A stretch of DNA of 37,200 bases from an uncultured Lysobacterales bacterium (GTDB taxonomy: Bacteria; Pseudomonadota; Gammaproteobacteria; Xanthomonadales; SZUA-36). Under the pieces are notes generated by a model, which saw nothing but the letters and a program-made list of their open reading frames with translations, did no database searches and was not told where the DNA came from. A program made the translations under genes and the position numbers. Positions 20,407 to 30,389 of this stretch are shown here, in pieces (the first letter of the stretch is position 1; the number at the start of each line of letters is the position of its first letter). Where the stretch lies: positions 2,443-39,642 of the forward strand of contig CAMYKC010000011.1 of NCBI GenBank assembly GCA_947258865.1, written 5' to 3'.

Positions 20407-22620
20407 TTAATCAAAACGGCTCACTGCAAACGGATTACCCACGTAGAAATATGCCGTGCTGTCGCCGCTGTCACTATGGCCGAATGCGAAATAGAGTGGG
20501 CCGATGGGGGTTTCGGCCCCGATGAAAATACTGGCTGAATAGCGCAGATCGCCAGTGTCAATATCGTCCCGTAAATTCCAGGTATTGCCGGTTTCCATGG
20601 TAAATCCAGCGTAAACCGGGGCTAATTCAATGTCGTTGAGAAGGCGGTAATAGGCGAATGTCAGCAACGCCTGCTGCCTTCCTGAAAGCTGATTGGGCAC
20701 CAGGCCGGACAGCCTGCCGAATCCGCCCAGCCTGAACCAGCGTTCGATGGGCGCGGCATCGTCAATGCTGTAACCTCCCTCATAATTCAGCAAGGCCGTG
20801 TTCCTGCCAAGGGTCCAGACGAACGAGCCGTTAGCCATGACCTGCTCGTAGTCAAAGGCAGCACCCAGCCCTTCCGAAGCATACCGGTAACCCAGGTGAT
20901 GGAACGTTCCGGAGCGTGGAAACCATGGACTGTCGAGGCTGTCATGAAGATATTCGACAGTGATCTCACCTATATCAACCTCGTCATCGACCGGAAAGTC
21001 CAATACACCCTTGATGACATTTGCGTCAGCCCGGGCGAACTCGTAATCGAGCCGAACGCGGTCGTTTGTACTCAAGTTCCGGCCAATCCCAAAAATAATG
21101 CCGCCACCACTGATTTCCAGCTCAGCAACATTGACGTCATCCTCCCAATAGTTGTAATTCTCTCTCCTCCAGTAAACCTGCGGTTCGATGAACCAGTTGG
21201 CCCTGTAGTCGATGGGTTGGTAAAAATCGAACGTGATTTGGTCCTCGCGTCCTATGCTGCCTAACACGCGAAGCTCACCACCCAGGGCGTTCAACGCGTT
21301 ACGCGTGTAAGCCGCGCCCAATTTGAATTCGGAATTGTCTGTAAAATCGCTGGACAGCTCCAGTCCGAACTGAAGGTAGTTTGGACCCCAGGCGCGTGGA
21401 ATCGCGTTAACGCGAATACCCTGCTCACCCTGCTCGTTTTCCACCAGATCGTAAGTTACGGATTCGAAAACGTCCAGGCTGTATATCTGGTCGACGCTCT
21501 TGTCGAGCGCCGCCAGGTCAAGGGGCTGCCTGATTTCCACCGCCAGACGCGATTGTATGATCTCGTCGCGCAAAACCGATCCATTGTTGATTTCAACGAA
21601 TTCAACCAGGTAGTCCTGAGCCGGATGTTCCGCCCGGATGGCTGGCTCAGGGTCCTGGCCAATTGTCAGTGCCGCAAGCGCGCCGCCCTGCTCCATCGCA
21701 GCCTGGTGGCCCACGATCACGATTGCTCCGGCGCCCTGGAAATTCGCGGCGCTGAAATTTCCAAGTTCCGGCACGATGAGCAGGTCTCGGGGTCCCAGCG
21801 TTTGTATCTGTGCCTCGGTGCTGCGGCGAACCAGGAAGTTGGTCAGTTGCTCCGTAACGCTCAAAATGGATTTGAGTTGCTCTTCTTTCAACATGGGGCT
21901 GGAAATATCGACCGCGATGACGATTTCGGCGCCCATTTCCCGTACAACGCTGACCGGCAGGTTATTGGACATCCCGCCATCCACCAGCAAACGGCCATCG
22001 ATCTTCACCGGTGCAAACACGCCGGGAACGGACATGCTGGCGCGCAATGCGTCCGGGAGGCTGCCGCCGGACAGCACAACTTCCTCTCCGGTCACCAGAT
22101 CGGTCGCAACCGCTCGAAATGGAATGGGCAGATCGTCGAACACCCTTACGTCTGCGATCGGCAGAAAGATGCGATGAAAAATCTGGTCCAGGTGCTGGCC
22201 TTCGATGGCTCCCAGCGGTAGCTGGATTCTGCCTCGATTGAACCCGACCCGGTAAGGAATCAGAAACTCTGCTTCCAGTTCCTTTTTTCGCATTGTGCGA
22301 TCCACGCGGGAAGGCTGGTCGCTCAACGCCTTGTTCCAGTCCGTTTCATTCAGGATTACATTGATTTCTTCCGCGTCATAGCCCGCGGCATAAAGTCCGC
22401 CGATGATGGCGCCCATACTGGTGCCCGCAATGTAATCGATCGGCACCTTCAACTCTTCCAATGCCTGCAGAATACCGACATGAGCGCCCCCGCGAGCACC
22501 GCCGCCGCTGAGCGCGAGTCCGATTTTGGGCCGCCGGGCTTGCTCTTCCTCCGCGGCATTAGCAGGAAACGCAGCCAGCATCAGCACAGTCGCCATGGCG
22601 ACGTAAATCATCTTCAGCAT
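20407..22620 (-). CDS. Patatin-like phospholipase with C-terminal POTRA/D15 outer-membrane barrel (PlpD/RssA-like); track ORF start 22764 over-extended
   Basis: Signal peptide MLKMIYVAMATVLMLAAFPANA; LALSGGGARGGAHVG, GTSMG, DGGMSNNLP; barrel C-terminus. Confidence 0.88.
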   Translation of the reverse strand: MLKMIYVAMATVLMLAAFPANAAEEEQARRPKIGLALSGGGARGGAHVGILQALEELKVPIDYIAGTSMGAIIGGLYAAGYDAEEINVILNETDWNKALSDQPSRVDRTMRKKELEAEFLIPYRVGFNRGRIQLPLGAIEGQHLDQIFHRIFLPIADVRVFDDLPIPFRAVATDLVTGEEVVLSGGSLPDALRASMSVPGVFAPVKIDGRLLVDGGMSNNLPVSVVREMGAEIVIAVDISSPMLKEEQLKSILSVTEQLTNFLVRRSTEAQIQTLGPRDLLIVPELGNFSAANFQGAGAIVIVGHQAAMEQGGALAALTIGQDPEPAIRAEHPAQDYLVEFVEINNGSVLRDEIIQSRLAVEIRQPLDLAALDKSVDQIYSLDVFESVTYDLVENEQGEQGIRVNAIPRAWGPNYLQFGLELSSDFTDNSEFKLGAAYTRNALNALGGELRVLGSIGREDQITFDFYQPIDYRANWFIEPQVYWRRENYNYWEDDVNVAELEISGGGIIFGIGRNLSTNDRVRLDYEFARADANVIKGVLDFPVDDEVDIGEITVEYLHDSLDSPWFPRSGTFHHLGYRYASEGLGAAFDYEQVMANGSFVWTLGRNTALLNYEGGYSIDDAAPIERWFRLGGFGRLSGLVPNQLSGRQQALLTFAYYRLLNDIELAPVYAGFTMETGNTWNLRDDIDTGDLRYSASIFIGAETPIGPLYFAFGHSDSGDSTAYFYVGNPFAVSRFD

Positions 22621-22756
22621 GGTCTTCAATCCGGTCGGAAATGTTGTAATTATAGGCTTTCCGGACATGTGAACGAAGGAAAGCTGATCAGGAACAAGTA
22701 AACGGAATCTATCTGTCGATAAAATACTGGCATCCACAAACATAAAAGGTTTCGAA

Positions 22757-24706
22757 ATGAGCACTATTTATCCTGTACCCGAATCTTTCAAAGAAAATGC
22801 GCATATCGATCAACAGGAATATGAGCGAATTTACGCCGATTCCGTCGAGAACAACGAAGCGTTCTGGACGGAAACAGCCAGGCGCCTGGACTGGATCGAG
22901 TTCCCCTCCACGACCAAAGACGTGTCCTTCGATAAATCGGATCTGCACATTCGATGGTACGAAGACGGCGTGCTTAACGCCTGTTACAACTGCGTCGACC
23001 GTCACCTGGATTCGCGCGGCGACCAGACGGCGATCATCTGGGAAGGCGACGATCCGGCACGCGATGAAAAGATCTCGTATCGTCAATTGCATGAACGAGT
23101 CTCCCGCATGGCCAACGTGCTGATCAAGCAGGGCGTCAAGAAGGGAGACCGCGTCACGATCTACATGCCGATGATCCCTGAAGCAGCGATATCCATGCTT
23201 GCCTGCGCCCGTATCGGCGCCATCCACTCGGTCGTGTTCGGCGGTTTTTCACCCGACGCCCTCGCCGGCCGGATCATTGACTGCGATTCCAACACTGTGA
23301 TCACCGCCGACCAGGGTCTCCGTGGCGGGCGAATTGTCCCTCTGAAGGATAATGTCGACGCAGCCTGTGGCATCGAAGGCGTAATGGACAGCCTCAAATG
23401 CGTCATCGTGGTCCGCAACACCGGTGGCGAAATCAACTGGGTGGAGGGGCGTGATTACTGGTATCACGAAGAAGCAGAAACCGTGACCGACGACTGCCCG
23501 GTCGAACCCATGAACGCTGAAGATCCTCTTTTCATTCTTTACACATCCGGATCGACTGGCAAGCCAAAGGGTGTGCTGCATACAACCGGCGGTTACATGG
23601 TCTTCGCGGCCTACACGCATGAAATCGTCTTTGATTATCACGACGGCGACATTTACTGGTGTACCGCGGACGTCGGCTGGGTCACCGGGCACAGCTACAT
23701 CGTTTACGGTCCGCTTGCGAACGGGGCCATCAGTCTGCTGTTCGAAGGCGTGCCAAACTACCCGACTTCAAGCCGTTTCTGGGAAGTCTGTGACAAGCAC
23801 CAGGTCAATATCTGCTACACAGCGCCTACTGCCATAAGGGCCTTGATGCGTGAAGGCGAAGAGCCGGTGAAATCGACTTCGCGAAAATCGCTCAGGTTGC
23901 TCGGCTCCGTGGGTGAGCCGATCAATCCGGAAGCCTGGGACTGGTACTACAGCGTCGTGGGCGAAGGCCGCTGCCCGATTGTGGACACCTGGTGGCAGAC
24001 GGAGACCGGCGGCATCCTGATCAGCCCACTGCCGGGCGCCACGGCCCTGAAACCGGGCTCCGCCACGAATCCGCTACCGGGGGTGATGCCTGCGCTGTTC
24101 GACGAGAAAGCCAATCCACTGCCGGCGGAAGGCGCCGCCTCGGGGCTGCTGGTGATAACCGACAGCTGGCCCGGGCAGATGCGTACCGTCTACGGTGACC
24201 ACCAACGGTTTGTCGACACCTATTTCTCAACCATTCCGGGCACCTACTTCACGGGTGACGGCGCGCGGCGTGACGAGGACGGCTATTACTGGATCACCGG
24301 CCGAGTAGACGACGTCCTGAATGTTTCAGGTCACCGTCTTGGTACCGCGGAAATCGAAAGCGCCCTGGTGGCGCACGAGGCGGTTTCCGAGGCGGCCGTG
24401 GTCGGCTATCCCCACGATATCAAGGGCGAAGGCATCTACGCCTACGTCACACTGGTCGTCAACGAGGAGCCGACGGATGATCTCAGGGCTGAGCTGAGAC
24501 AATGGGTTCGCAAGGAAATCGGCCCGATCGCCACGCCAGATCTATTGCAGTGGGCGCCCGGGTTGCCCAAAACCCGCTCCGGCAAGATCATGCGCCGTAT
24601 TCTGCGCAAAATCGCAGCAAACGACTACGGAAGCCTGGGCGATACATCAACCCTCGCTGAACCGGAAGTAGTACAGCAGCTGATTGATCATCGGATGAAC
24701 CGCTGA
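22757..24706 (+). CDS. acs: Acetyl-CoA synthetase
   Basis: [44 protein letters not shown]. Confidence 0.96.
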
Positions 24707-25342: not shown

Positions 25343-27067
25343 TTAGAGCCGGCCGTGCTCCAACGGCCGTTCTCTGTGCATCAAGAGCCACTCCGCACCT
25401 TCATCCAGTGCGGCCTGGCCCAGCGCGTTCAAAACCTGCCTCTGGAAAACGATATCGTCGGATTCAAGCAGTAATTTCCTTGCTTTCAGAAATACGCGGT
25501 TCATGAATCCGTACTGTTTGATCAGCTCTTTTTCTGCTTTCTTGTGGGAATAAGCGTCCCAGATACCGGCTACCAGGGGCAGAGCGCCCATCAGGATAAG
25601 CAAGTTGCGCCTCTGTTCCTCGCCACCGTTCGCACCCATCAGAAACAACACGATCGCGATCACTATACCGGCCCATAAACAAAGATTGCCGAGCACACGG
25701 GTGCGTCGAAAACGCGAAATATTGTCCAGTTCCTTGCTCGAATAGTAGGCGAGTTGGCCGCGGTTGCGTGCCGAATCTCCAACCCACTCGTCGATGACCC
25801 AGGCCACCCAGCCGGTCTCGTGCGGCTGCCCGCGCAGGCAAAACATGCTGGCCTGACGCATCACGTGCCGGATCCAGCCCAGGTCCACATCCTGGGTCTG
25901 CAGGAAATTGTCAAAGGCGAACCCGGCATAACCCATGTCTGCCACGCCGGAAAGATTCCAGTAGAACTGCACACGCAAGCCCTCGGCCAGCGCCCGGTAA
26001 TCCAGGTACTTGCGATGCCATTCACGGCTCTCGCCAATGATGTGCAAGGCGACACCCGCGAAAAAAAGCCCGAGAAAGACCATGATCATGTACCTTGGCC
26101 CGTCGTATTCCGAATAAACGAGGAATACCAGCCCCATCATTACCGCCAGAATGTGTACCGCTCGCAGGCTGCTGTGGACCCGTTTCTGATAATGGATAGC
26201 GAGACCGTCCGCGACCTGGAACAATTGATCGGTCAGGCGTGCTCCCGTCGGTAGTTCGAGCTCCGGTTTCCCTGCAAGCAGACTGGAGCTTGTTGTCCGT
26301 ATGATTTCGGTCTTTTCATGCCAGTCGCGGGAAAATTGCTGCAGGCGGCTCAATAAGGTGCGATAAGCCTCCGGAATATCGGCTGACCGCTCACCGTCCA
26401 TGCGGCTGCTGAACCAGGCAGACTCCAGGGCATTCAATCCGGCGGCAGGCCCGCCCCCCGGGCGATCTCGTGAACAGACAACGTGGTACACCAGGTCGTT
26501 TTCATTTTCCGCAAGCAGGCTGGCCGGTGTTGGATCTTCCTCAACGCCCTTCATCACTGCCGTAAGGTGATACTTCACGACCTGGCCGGTGCCACCGGGC
26601 TCTTCACTGTCTTTGCCGTCCCACAAAGCCAACAGCACCTGGCAGTGATTGGAAACGAACAATCCCAGCTGAGCATACTGACGCTGTCTTTGACTCTCGC
26701 CCTGCGAGAGATCTGTGGCAATACGCGGCATCGGCAATGTAATGACCTGATCGGCTTCAGCCAGCAGGCCGCGAAACTCGGAAAGCGCCTTTTCCGTTTC
26801 GAAATCCTTTTCGTATTCAACCTGTTCCATCGGGAGAACGGCAACGATGGAAATCCCACGGGAAATCGCTACGCGGGCCGCTAACTGATCACCGCCTTCG
26901 GCCAGGGGCGTGATCAGCTGCAGCGGGATATCCGGAAATTCCCGTTCGAGATTTTCAAGAAATTCGCCAACTCGAGCTTCGATTCCAGGGACTTCCGCTT
27001 CCAGCAGATCCCGGTGCGCGGTGACCCCCACACTGAGGTTCAGGCCCGCTTGTTCAGAGTCCTGCAT
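25343..27067 (-). CDS. SLOG-like Rossmann domain fused to C-terminal SLATT-like multi-TM region
   Basis: N-term VGVTAHRDL...LQLITPLAEGGDQLAARVAISRGISIVAVLPM; hydrophobic pairs AVHILAVMMGLVFLVY / YMIMVFLGLFFAGVALHII and LCLWAGIVIAIVLFLMG / LLILMGALPLVAGIW. Confidence 0.6.
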   Translation of the reverse strand: MQDSEQAGLNLSVGVTAHRDLLEAEVPGIEARVGEFLENLEREFPDIPLQLITPLAEGGDQLAARVAISRGISIVAVLPMEQVEYEKDFETEKALSEFRGLLAEADQVITLPMPRIATDLSQGESQRQRQYAQLGLFVSNHCQVLLALWDGKDSEEPGGTGQVVKYHLTAVMKGVEEDPTPASLLAENENDLVYHVVCSRDRPGGGPAAGLNALESAWFSSRMDGERSADIPEAYRTLLSRLQQFSRDWHEKTEIIRTTSSSLLAGKPELELPTGARLTDQLFQVADGLAIHYQKRVHSSLRAVHILAVMMGLVFLVYSEYDGPRYMIMVFLGLFFAGVALHIIGESREWHRKYLDYRALAEGLRVQFYWNLSGVADMGYAGFAFDNFLQTQDVDLGWIRHVMRQASMFCLRGQPHETGWVAWVIDEWVGDSARNRGQLAYYSSKELDNISRFRRTRVLGNLCLWAGIVIAIVLFLMGANGGEEQRRNLLILMGALPLVAGIWDAYSHKKAEKELIKQYGFMNRVFLKARKLLLESDDIVFQRQVLNALGQAALDEGAEWLLMHRERPLEHGRL

Positions 27068-27091
27068 ATTTCCTGGCTTTAGAGTCCGGGT

Positions 27092-27631
27092 CTAATTCCC
27101 GCCCCGATTATCGATAATCGGGTGGGAGCTGATTTTTTCTCCCGTGCTGCGGTTCTGGGCATGAACCAGGTAATGCGTAATACACTGGTTTTTGTTGTAG
27201 TCCTTGATCATCATTTTCTGACCATTGGCGGTGACGTGGGCTGTTGAGGCATAGCCGGAAACCTTGTCCGCGGGCGGCAGATTGAAATCTTCCACCGTGC
27301 AATCTTTCAGCGGAACACCTGGAGCGCCCCAGTTGTTGCCATCGGGACTGAACTGCAGAGCGATCAATTCCCATTCGCCGCGACTTGCGCTGTCCAACTC
27401 CCAGCTAATGTTGGGGGAATTGCCATGAGCGGCCTCGACACAGCCGTAGTCGAACAGCCGCCCAGGACATTCGGAATTGTCGAAAAACAGCTTATAACCT
27501 TCCGTGGTCTGCCTGACGGCAAGATCGATGTGCTTGTCTTCGGCCAGCACCTGGCTGGTGCCTGCGATGGTTAACAAAAAAAAGCATGAGGTTATCGTTC
27601 TGATACGTATGTTTGCTATAGCATTTAGCAT
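27092..27631 (-). CDS. Small exported protein of unknown function
   Basis: Signal peptide MLNAIANIRIRTITSCFFLLTIAGTSQVLA then a Cys-containing mature domain; track ORF extends to 27694 from a TTG. Confidence 0.7.
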   Translation of the reverse strand: MLNAIANIRIRTITSCFFLLTIAGTSQVLAEDKHIDLAVRQTTEGYKLFFDNSECPGRLFDYGCVEAAHGNSPNISWELDSASRGEWELIALQFSPDGNNWGAPGVPLKDCTVEDFNLPPADKVSGYASTAHVTANGQKMMIKDYNKNQCITHYLVHAQNRSTGEKISSHPIIDNRGGN

Positions 27632-27690
27632 GGTTTGTCTCCTGTTCTGGGCTGTTGAATGACACCCGAATCTGAAGTTCGTGTCGTCAG

Positions 27691-29781
27691 TCAACGGTCA
27701 CATAATTGCTGCTCCCTGCAAAAGTCAATAAAACCGGGTTCAAAATAACCTTTTTCCAAAAGGTAGGAGGTATATTCGAGAGCCAGTGCCCTGTCCTTCC
27801 TCAGTAACGACAGCTTTGCCGCGGCGTGTGCATCATTGCAACTCCGCACCCTCTCGGGCTCAGACAGGTATCCATCTAGCATCATCATGATGTTTGTTTC
27901 CGGGTTCCTTTGGTGTTGATGCCAGAACTGGTATGCCATCAGGGAGAGGTAGTGCCGGCTGCGGCCGTGTTCGGGATTTTCCTCAACCAGATTGACCACG
28001 CGATCAAGGCCGTCCTGAAGCAGCATTTCAGCCAGCAATTCGTCTCCCGTCTCGAACGCCAATTTGGAATATGCCAACAAAAGATCTGCGAATTGAATTT
28101 CAGACTTGATGCCGAGGGTCTTGTCAGATTCATTGATTTCTTTCAGCGAAGACAGGAGCGCGGACATGGTAACCAGGGCCGCCTCTTTTTCGCCGGTATA
28201 GACCTGCAACACGGCAATATTCTTTGTCCGCAGCAGTTTTTGCCAGCGGTAGTAGAGATTACTCGTGTCCTGTATTGAGAGATCGTCAAGAAGCCGCTCG
28301 GATTCCCGAAATTGCATAAGCGATTGTTCTGTCATCCCAACCTGTCTTTGCACATTTCCCAATCCTGCAAGAGCGTACGCAAGGTCTTCCTTGAGGTTCG
28401 AATCCCCTGGCGTGACGTCGTAGAATCCGGTGGCCAGTTCGACATTCCTCATCCGGTTTATGAGGGCGTCCCCCAGGCCGCAAACCTTCAGATAAGCATC
28501 GGCAAGGTCCGCGTGAGAATCCGTCAGGGCGATTCGAATATCGTCGTTGCCGGGATCAGCCATCAGCGCCTTTCGATTGTAGTCCAGCGACGCTTCCATG
28601 TAGCCCAGTATTTTCTCGGGGTTTGCCCCTTCCCGGGATTTCTCCAGCCAGCCCATATTGCCCGTCGCGTAGGACATTTCCATGATCCACTCAGCATTAC
28701 CGGGATCCATTTCCATGAGCTGTTCTGAAATGTCGAGATACCGGGTAAATGACTTTTCGGTTGCCGCCAGGTCGCCCAGATCCCAGTGAACATAACCGAT
28801 CCAGAATTCTGCCTGCCCGAGTTCAAACAGGCGATCGGTATCTTCAGGCTGCCGGCGGTAGAGTTCCGCCAGCACGTCGCGCGAATTCGTAAACGCTTCC
28901 ATGGCCTCGGCCAGCTTGCCCTGGTCTTTGCTGACTTCGCCAAGCTGCCTCCAGACCTGCGCCTGCTGATTGAGGGACTCATCGGTCAATTCCCCGGAAT
29001 CGAGCGTTTCCAGGTACTGGGTGACCTGTTCCCCCATGCTGTCGAGGATATCGAGGCGGCCTACCGAGTCCAGTTTTTGACGTAAGTCGCCAACCATATA
29101 GCCCACCAGGTCTTCCGCGTGCTCCCGGCGGTTCTCAGCGGCGTTGCGCGCATTCACCGCCATGATGGCAAGTACCGTGGTGACCACCGCCACCGCCAAA
29201 GCCGTCATCGAGGAAGCCATCCACAGGCGGTGCCTGCGTTGCATGTCCCGCCTTCTCAGGTCGTCCAGGCGGATGCCCAGGATGCCGGAAATCAACTTCA
29301 GCCTGGCCAGGAGTCTGCCATCGGCCCACTTGCGCACATCGGCCGCGAGCGGTTCACTCTGACTCCCGTCCTCGTTGGTCAATAATGCGGATGGAAAACA
29401 ACTGTCTTCAGCGTCCGTGGCCAGTGGGTCACCATCCACGATCAGAGCGTAAATCCGGTCAGTACGTCCCAGGGAACGAAAGTATCGAATTTCCTCGTTT
29501 ACCCAGTGAGATTGGGCAGAGGCCGGAGAACAGATAACGACCAGGGTCTCGGATTGGTCCAACTCCTGCCTGACCGAACTGCTGAGATCGGCCGCGGAAG
29601 ACAGATCTTCGCGATCACGAAATACCGGGGATAGCCGGGCGGGTATCTCGCCAAACTCGCCTTCCTTGCCCACCAGGCGTCCTGGAATTCGATAGCTTTC
29701 CAGTGCGCGCTGCAGCCAGCGGCCCCAGGTTTCATCCCGGTGGCTGTAGGAAATGAACGCCTTATAGCGAAAGTGACTCAA
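27691..29781 (-). CDS. TIR domain - single TM - TPR protein; TTG start overlapping upstream stop (TTGA)
   Basis: FRYKAFISYSHRDETWGRWLQRALESYRIP; SPASAQSHWVNEEIRYF; TM SSMTALAVAVVTTVLAIMAV; AEDLVGYMVGDLRQKLDSVGRLDIL then TPR-like repeats. Confidence 0.85.
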   Translation of the reverse strand: MSHFRYKAFISYSHRDETWGRWLQRALESYRIPGRLVGKEGEFGEIPARLSPVFRDREDLSSAADLSSSVRQELDQSETLVVICSPASAQSHWVNEEIRYFRSLGRTDRIYALIVDGDPLATDAEDSCFPSALLTNEDGSQSEPLAADVRKWADGRLLARLKLISGILGIRLDDLRRRDMQRRHRLWMASSMTALAVAVVTTVLAIMAVNARNAAENRREHAEDLVGYMVGDLRQKLDSVGRLDILDSMGEQVTQYLETLDSGELTDESLNQQAQVWRQLGEVSKDQGKLAEAMEAFTNSRDVLAELYRRQPEDTDRLFELGQAEFWIGYVHWDLGDLAATEKSFTRYLDISEQLMEMDPGNAEWIMEMSYATGNMGWLEKSREGANPEKILGYMEASLDYNRKALMADPGNDDIRIALTDSHADLADAYLKVCGLGDALINRMRNVELATGFYDVTPGDSNLKEDLAYALAGLGNVQRQVGMTEQSLMQFRESERLLDDLSIQDTSNLYYRWQKLLRTKNIAVLQVYTGEKEAALVTMSALLSSLKEINESDKTLGIKSEIQFADLLLAYSKLAFETGDELLAEMLLQDGLDRVVNLVEENPEHGRSRHYLSLMAYQFWHQHQRNPETNIMMMLDGYLSEPERVRSCNDAHAAAKLSLLRKDRALALEYTSYLLEKGYFEPGFIDFCREQQLCDR

Positions 29782-30389
29782 TTGAGGCCGTCGTTCTCAA
29801 CGCGTGGGTCTGATGTTTTGCTTATGCTGTCGTCAGCGCAATTGGTTGCCGTCACCCGGTACCAAAGGACCTTGGTTCCCACGTTTTTATTCAGATTGAT
29901 GAAGGCTACTTTTGTCCTGGCCTCATTGACATCTGTCTCCTCATACAAAAGGCCCACGGTAGAATCTTTGATCGGATAGAATGAACTCGTTACCCAGAGT
30001 GGCAGCGCAGCGCTCCAACCGCTGCCTTTATTATCATCACTGCCATCAGCAGTAACGGTAGCCTCGACCTTGGTAATCACCCACTGCACGCCAGAATCGC
30101 CACACTTCTCCTTATTGGCTCCACTGTCGGCCCTGAGGCTGAAGGCGATCACGCCAAAAGTATCTTTTTCGAAACGGACACAACCTTTCCGGGTCTTGCC
30201 CGAAGGAACAGCGCAGTTTCGATTATCGCTGTATGTTTTAAGATCTGTTCCGGCTGCCCTGGCGTTGAATTCCACTTCGTAACTCACAAAGCCACCACCG
30301 GCTGTAACATCAAACAGGCCAAGATTGGGTGCACACCCGGCAATTACCAGGCACAAAATACCTACGCAAAATAATGAGACTTTAGTCAT
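29778..30389 (-). CDS. Lipoprotein of unknown function
   Basis: MTKVSLFCVGILCLVIAGC lipobox. Confidence 0.75.
   Translation of the reverse strand: MTKVSLFCVGILCLVIAGCAPNLGLFDVTAGGGFVSYEVEFNARAAGTDLKTYSDNRNCAVPSGKTRKGCVRFEKDTFGVIAFSLRADSGANKEKCGDSGVQWVITKVEATVTADGSDDNKGSGWSAALPLWVTSSFYPIKDSTVGLLYEETDVNEARTKVAFINLNKNVGTKVLWYRVTATNCADDSISKTSDPRVENDGLN

Follow-up and report, generated by a model that had tools for sequence, protein, structure and literature searches.

A candidate outside-in TIR/SLOG operon from an uncultured Lysobacterales bacterium, with a TM-TPR receptor and DP-EP-like partner proteins

To our knowledge, the bacterial TIR defense enzymes known so far sense infection inside the cell. 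The described systems closest to the operon reported here include the Thoeris systems, of which the type I and type II signaling mechanisms have been summarized (PMC12948488). Pairs of TIR and SLATT proteins, with SLATT membrane effectors gated by ADPR derivatives, were predicted earlier in a study that also placed cADPR sensors in the YpsA-like SLOG clade (PMC9503650), and phage defense by DRT10 requires a SLATT gene (PMC12632851). Our search of the open-access literature found no published account of the architecture described below, or of a receptor pair made of DP-EP and TPR proteins.

The DNA analyzed, which we call the window, is a stretch of 37,200 nucleotides from an uncultured Lysobacterales bacterium (contig CAMYKC010000011.1). 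A first-pass annotation, made from the sequence alone, had described four close-set minus-strand genes encoding, in this order, a lipoprotein, a TIR-TM-TPR protein, an exported protein and a SLOG-like protein with four transmembrane (TM) segments. The open reading frames were confirmed, and the gaps between them are essentially as given there. The positions given below for the genes and domains of the operon refer to the minus strand. The first gene (29778..30389) encodes a small protein of 203 aa, LIP, with the lipobox VIAGC and the C-terminal tail TSDPRVENDGLN, which is of the P-x-x-x-N type. It is followed by the gene for the TIR-TM-TPR receptor (27691..29781; 696 aa, TTG start), which has Pfam matches to TIR_2, ThsB_TIR and TPR and belongs to a conserved family (A2). 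The third gene (27092..27631) encodes a second small protein, EXP, with a signal peptide, a beta-sandwich according to its model and Foldseek matches, and the C-terminal tail SSHPIIDNRGGN, which contains HP, not DP. A TTG start would extend EXP to 27092-27694 (200 aa), but the signal peptide favors the ATG at 27631. The last gene (25343..27067) encodes a protein of 574 aa for which the model, Foldseek and profile matches point to a SLOG-SLATT-SLATT effector with four TM segments. Along the operon, the junctions are a 4-nt TTGA overlap, about 59 nt (counting EXP from the ATG) and 24 nt.

The module is flanked in the window by ycgL, exbD and glmS on one side and by lysM and acs on the other. In two relatives (G016 and G006; loci L154 and L155), these two sets of flanking genes directly adjoin each other. 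Their glmS-acs distances are 1602 and 1477 bp; the distance expected for the window once the module is removed is 1606 bp (6653 - 5047). Because close relatives hold the same flanks with a clean empty site, we consider the module to be accessory and its site fixed. This site is stable and chromosomal, has housekeeping neighbors and is not part of a defense island. No full-length copies of the module were found on phages or plasmids; one partial (truncated) copy is present on a viral contig. A gene for a patatin-like phospholipase fused to an Omp85 barrel (window positions 20407-22764) adjoins acs, close to the module.

The 574-aa protein gave a confident structure model (pLDDT 86.9, pTM 0.87). 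The nearest fold to its N-terminal domain (aa 10-200; 26468..27040) is that of YpsA (Foldseek E 2.2e-4, probability 1.00, TM by target 0.66), followed by DprA and LOG. Pfam gave no SLOG match in the window's protein and YAcAr SLOG matches in 5 of 39 homologues. As modeled, this domain belongs to the SLOG superfamily with its YpsA/DprA/LOG-type Rossmann fold, which agrees with the first-pass annotation. The invariant residues H18, R19, A56, G58, D60, P79, W149, G158, G159 and T160 are located at or after the C-termini of beta-strands, the usual nucleotide-binding face of such folds. Four TM segments were found, at about aa 299-317, 327-345, 458-476 and 489-507, as had been proposed; they coincide with profile matches to a SLATT_3/DUF4231-like 2TM unit (aa 281-367; 25967..26227) and a SLATT_1-like 2TM unit (aa 434-507; 25547..25768). 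The SLATT/DUF4231 scores of the window's protein are under the curated cut-offs (26.2 vs 45 bits), and one distant homologue passes the DUF4231 cut-off. Across the family, matches at E<0.01 were obtained for SLATT_1 in 38/39 members, for SLATT_3 in 31/39 and for DUF4231 in 35/39, and the strongest conservation of the effector includes the SLATT linker WHRKYLDYRALAEGLRVQ. Relatedness between the two 2TM units, as expected for an internal duplication, was not detectable, and neither was profile similarity between TIR and SLOG. Pfam, NCBIfam and PADLOC provided no family name for the SLOG protein or the small proteins of the window, and phmmer searches found no PDB match for the SLOG protein, the TIR-TPR protein or two non-exported small proteins. 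At two other loci (L146 and L192), SLOG-SLATT-like proteins adjoin patatin-like phospholipase genes in place of TIR.

The TIR domain of the receptor (about aa 1-135; 29377..29781) scored above the Pfam cut-off (TIR_2, 1.3e-12, 48.7 bits vs 28; ThsB_TIR, 5.7e-9). W93 and E97, within WVNEE, are invariant in an alignment of 28 sequences, and E97 is predicted to be the catalytic Glu. Hydropathy and charge place a single TM segment at aa 189-209 (29155..29217), and all 28 TIR-TPR proteins have one such segment with its basic, N-terminal side towards the TIR domain (positive-inside). The TPR region (27712..29139) is homologous to the TPR regions of the wHTH-nSTAND1 and kinase receptors discussed below. 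The part after the TM segment contains exactly four Cys in 20/20 same-family TIR-TPR proteins and 0-2 in the 8/8 others. TIR-TM-TPR genes are duplicated in tandem at two loci (L106 and L134), which suggests that several receptors may serve one SLOG-SLATT effector.

We surveyed 121 related genomes, 39 of them from the window's own family, and found the SLOG protein in 45 of the 121. Within the family, 27 of the 39 genomes hold both SLOG and TIR-TPR, 11 hold neither, one has SLOG only (a fragment at a contig end) and none has TIR only (Fisher 7e-9, phylogeny ignored); the gene co-occurrence that the first-pass annotation had anticipated is therefore present. In 23/25 determinable same-family loci, the gene immediately upstream of SLOG is TIR-TPR; at the two exceptions (L094 and L102), the pairs of TIR and small-protein genes sit on other contigs (L132 and L136). 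TIR-TPR and small-protein pairs with no SLOG gene nearby were observed at six loci (L132, L133, L136, L160, L166 and L031), and every genome of the window's family that has such a pair also has a SLOG-SLATT gene elsewhere. Outside the family, a TIR gene is present within about 6 kb at 15/17 full-length SLOG-SLATT loci, 11 of which have it adjacent and on the same strand. The neighbor is sometimes of another TIR family (L115, L116, L129, L123, L126 and L127); that of L115 matches TIR_2 at 2.9e-22 and has TPR. Genomes of the window's family contain 0-5 TIR_2 genes.

Distant SLOG homologues on plasmids also adjoin TIR genes; three of these contexts include a caspase gene, and another includes an 8xMP membrane protein. 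The three are TIR and caspase operons on pBS72 (L139), pTi (L140) and a Methylorubrum plasmid (L141). Each also encodes SLOG as a stand-alone protein, a relative of the window's SLOG domain and possibly a third part of caspase-type Thoeris-like systems. On Novosphingobium plasmid p4 (L142:4363-6483), the gene row is TIR, TIR, 8xMP octameric membrane protein, SLOG.

The first-pass annotation had listed a lipoprotein and an exported protein as two exported partners. Both are present, and rather than being unrelated they are homologous (hhalign E 1.3e-24): LIP and EXP form one family and are paralogues of DP-EP-like fold, which had been missed. The EXP model (pLDDT 88.4) had SO1698, the Shewanella DUF1888/DP-EP protein (PF08985), as all twelve of its best PDB matches in Foldseek (best E 4.3e-7, TM by target about 0.7), and as modeled EXP shares the SO1698 beta-sandwich fold. 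In profile comparisons, the exported small family matched DP-EP at E 4.6e-6 and the non-exported one at E 3.2e-7, compared with E 0.6 for a control with the reversed cytosolic (non-exported) set. None of the 27 exported members has a Pfam DP-EP match above the cut-off, and hmmsearch with a profile of the small family returned nothing credible.

Nearly all small proteins of this family have a hydrophobic export signal or lipobox, and the exported ones carry conserved Cys pairs and have no invariant Lys (A3). A P-x-x-x-N tail is present in 27/27 exported small proteins, 7-17 residues from the C-terminus, within the near-invariant motif D171-P172-x-x-x-N176-x-G178. The dipeptide is DP in LIP, HP in EXP, and NP, QP or TP in the non-exported f12 copies. 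Between TIR-TPR and SLOG of one locus (L121:9879-10792), two genes for non-exported small proteins stand in tandem, and each protein ends in NPSIKNN. The DUF1888 family has been crystallized and is self-cleaving, and we know of no role for it. SO1698 is reported to cleave itself at an Asp-Pro near the C-terminus, in the region of D116 and P117, presumably with D37 and K98 as catalytic residues.

The class-wide sample contained no DP-EP genes, and the search was therefore moved to a different order, where true DP-EP (PF08985) genes were found in 17 genomes (L213-L229). In 17/17, the neighbor is a protein of 1,037-1,141 aa. Its C-terminal half aligns with the TM-TPR profile of the window, starting at the TM segment (E about 1e-46 to 1e-61; hmm about 180-640), and the N-terminus of the five that were checked is Trans_reg_C plus nSTAND1, i.e. 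wHTH-nSTAND1. This constant adjacency suggests a function for an orphan self-cleaving family: DUF1888 gains a concrete partner in TM-TPR receptors, which makes its role testable. Ser/Thr kinase-TM-TPR proteins match the same profile at E 1e-77 to 1e-94, and in three cases (L236, L238 and L240) the next gene encodes a small protein that ends in a DPxxxN-like tail. Another TM-TPR relative is an nSTAND1 protein whose N-terminus carries no assigned domain and whose small neighbor ends in DPxxxN or similar. Three ECF-sigma-associated TPR proteins (L231, L232 and L235) match the TPR profile, and no tailed small neighbor was found for them, so the partner is not present for every TPR match.

Judged from sequence and gene neighborhood, the TM-TPR region and the small tailed protein are shown to be a reusable input module, with TIR, wHTH-nSTAND1 or Ser/Thr kinase as putative outputs; one shared sensor thus links TIR, STAND, kinase and transcription outputs. 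The operon of the window looks like the TIR-output form of this modular receptor, coupled to a SLOG-SLATT membrane effector. A bolder reading, which we put forward tentatively and at somewhat less than even chances, is that of a widespread and undescribed receptor family with an exchangeable cytoplasmic output, one TM segment, a TPR sensor and a dedicated small protein of the DP-EP-like kind, whose tail may be the part that is read, with the TIR branch as a Toll-receptor-like outside-in immune sensor that fires a SLOG-SLATT pore. We see more novelty in the modular receptor than in the Thoeris-like pairing.

The first-pass annotation had placed the trigger in the periplasm, acting through the TPR region and the exported partners. 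For the window's family, a periplasmic TPR is favored, because there are four Cys in 20/20 TPRs, Cys pairs in the partners, signal peptides or lipoboxes, and a positive-inside orientation. The proposal is at odds with the other families and most DP-EP genes, where the small partner has no signal peptide, though the TM-TPR orientation looks alike. Direct binding to a periplasmic TPR is therefore no general rule; leaderless partners would act either on the cytoplasmic side or after export without a leader. Mean pairwise identity within the family is 0.79 for acs, 0.74 for glmS, 0.56 for SLOG, 0.29 for TPR and 0.26 for the small proteins, and mean TIR identity, measured to the window copy, is 0.59. 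Slowly evolving cytoplasmic signaling parts with fast outer parts would fit a sensor under changing selection, and rapid drift may also explain these values.

We regard the operon as probably an outside-in signaling and killing or arrest module, and a Thoeris-like pairing with a membrane effector as its best mechanism, with somewhat better than even confidence. The periplasmic TPR region and the exported DP-EP-like small proteins, one of them a lipoprotein, would form the sensor, in which their conserved C-terminal tail, D/H-P-x-I/V-x-N-x-G, probably makes the contact or is the part under regulation. An envelope event would alter the sensor complex and cause the cytoplasmic TIR domains to cluster. 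Judging from TIR homology and the invariant E97, these would consume NAD+ and make an ADP-ribose-type signal, which would bind the YpsA-like SLOG domain, so that the SLATT 4TM unit opens or assembles. The inner membrane would then be permeabilized, leading to a growth stop or cell death. A role in conflict or defense against phage, predators or envelope attack is plausible and would be its most likely use. If this is true, the periplasm-facing TIR receptor and its secreted partner would work from the outside in, as animal Toll receptors do.

The same parts could instead make up an envelope-stress or peptide-signaling system, in which a cue from the envelope or one that the cell produces itself leads TIR to make a nucleotide that adjusts membrane conductance or growth, with no killing. 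The fixed chromosomal site near glmS, exbD, ycgL, lysM and acs, the wide presence in the family, the full-length copies not being found on mobile elements and the regulatory outputs (transcription, kinase) of homologous sensors all speak for it. On the other hand, elsewhere it is typically conflict systems that combine TIR with SLOG or SLATT (PMC9503650), and both the fast divergence of the sensor and the clean presence or absence of the module in close relatives resemble defense genes; we consider this reading rather unlikely. The possibility that unrelated genes are clustered here by chance can be dismissed, since the TIR-SLOG linkage recurs across dozens of genomes and in more than one family, and at most five TIR_2 genes per genome leave chance as no explanation.

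Two further alternatives concern single components. DP-EP chemistry may supply the trigger: Asp-Pro autocleavage would free or expose the peptide PRxENxG at the C-terminus for the TPR to read. This would agree with the fold match to SO1698, for which mutants of D116 and P117, close to the C-terminus, are among those studied, and with the near-invariant DP motif and the tail common to all exported members. However, EXP carries HP, the non-exported f12 copies carry NP, QP or TP, and the exported family lacks an invariant Lys, whereas the studied SO1698 residues include one; the likeness is one at the level of the fold. We rate it as unlikely, at about one chance in several. Alternatively, SLOG might be an enzyme that, as a LOG-like nucleotide hydrolase, clears the TIR signal or yields a product of its own, with the TM parts as a mere anchor. 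LOG-type hydrolases do occur within SLOG, for which both roles have been proposed (PMC9503650), and the conserved GGT loop appears to resemble LOG motifs. Yet the closest fold is YpsA, of a clade tied to cADPR sensing (PMC9503650), and the high conservation of the SLATT linker suggests a gated effector, which makes an enzymatic SLOG improbable.

The interpretation first proposed stands in part: the TIR and SLOG-plus-SLATT pairing, in which the SLOG protein itself would be the membrane effector, and its conserved linkage are supported, and a periplasmic trigger is favored in the window's family. By the features examined, the operon is no member of Thoeris. As in Thoeris type I (ThsB TIR and ThsA SIR2-SLOG), a TIR protein is located beside a SLOG partner, and ADPR-type signaling is expected. 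In contrast to type I, the window has no SIR2; Pfam, NCBIfam and PADLOC found no such domain in the SLOG protein, which has four TM segments instead, its SLOG domain being fused to SLATT TM units. Its TIR protein is a predicted membrane receptor with TPR, and exported partners are present. With Thoeris type II (TIR and 2TM-Macro ThsA, His-ADPR), the operon would share a TIR-activated membrane effector, but its sensor is SLOG, not Macro, for which profile scans of the operon gave no match, and its four TM segments have SLATT similarity. A caspase gene, present in the distant plasmid contexts, is absent from the operon. PADLOC and NCBIfam Thoeris models gave weak partial ThsB matches only and no ThsA match to the SLOG protein. 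Lacking SIR2, Macro and caspase, the operon was not assigned to Thoeris, though it would work like it.

In the TIR and SLATT pairs predicted by Aravind and colleagues (PMC9503650), TIR likewise adjoins a SLATT membrane effector, but those are phage-borne 2TM SLATT proteins, whereas the window combines SLOG and two SLATT-like units with a TM-TPR receptor and DP-EP-like partners. The exported small proteins resemble DP-EP/DUF1888 (PF08985, SO1698) in fold, in the C-terminal DP tail and in having a neighbor with the same TM-TPR; they differ in being below the Pfam cut-off and exported with Cys pairs, EXP lacks the Asp, and any self-cleavage of theirs would be hypothetical. Finally, the wHTH-nSTAND1-TM-TPR and Ser/Thr kinase-TM-TPR proteins have a homologous TM-TPR and an adjacent small protein with a P-x-x-x-N tail, but they carry another N-terminal output, and no SLOG-SLATT partner was noted for them.
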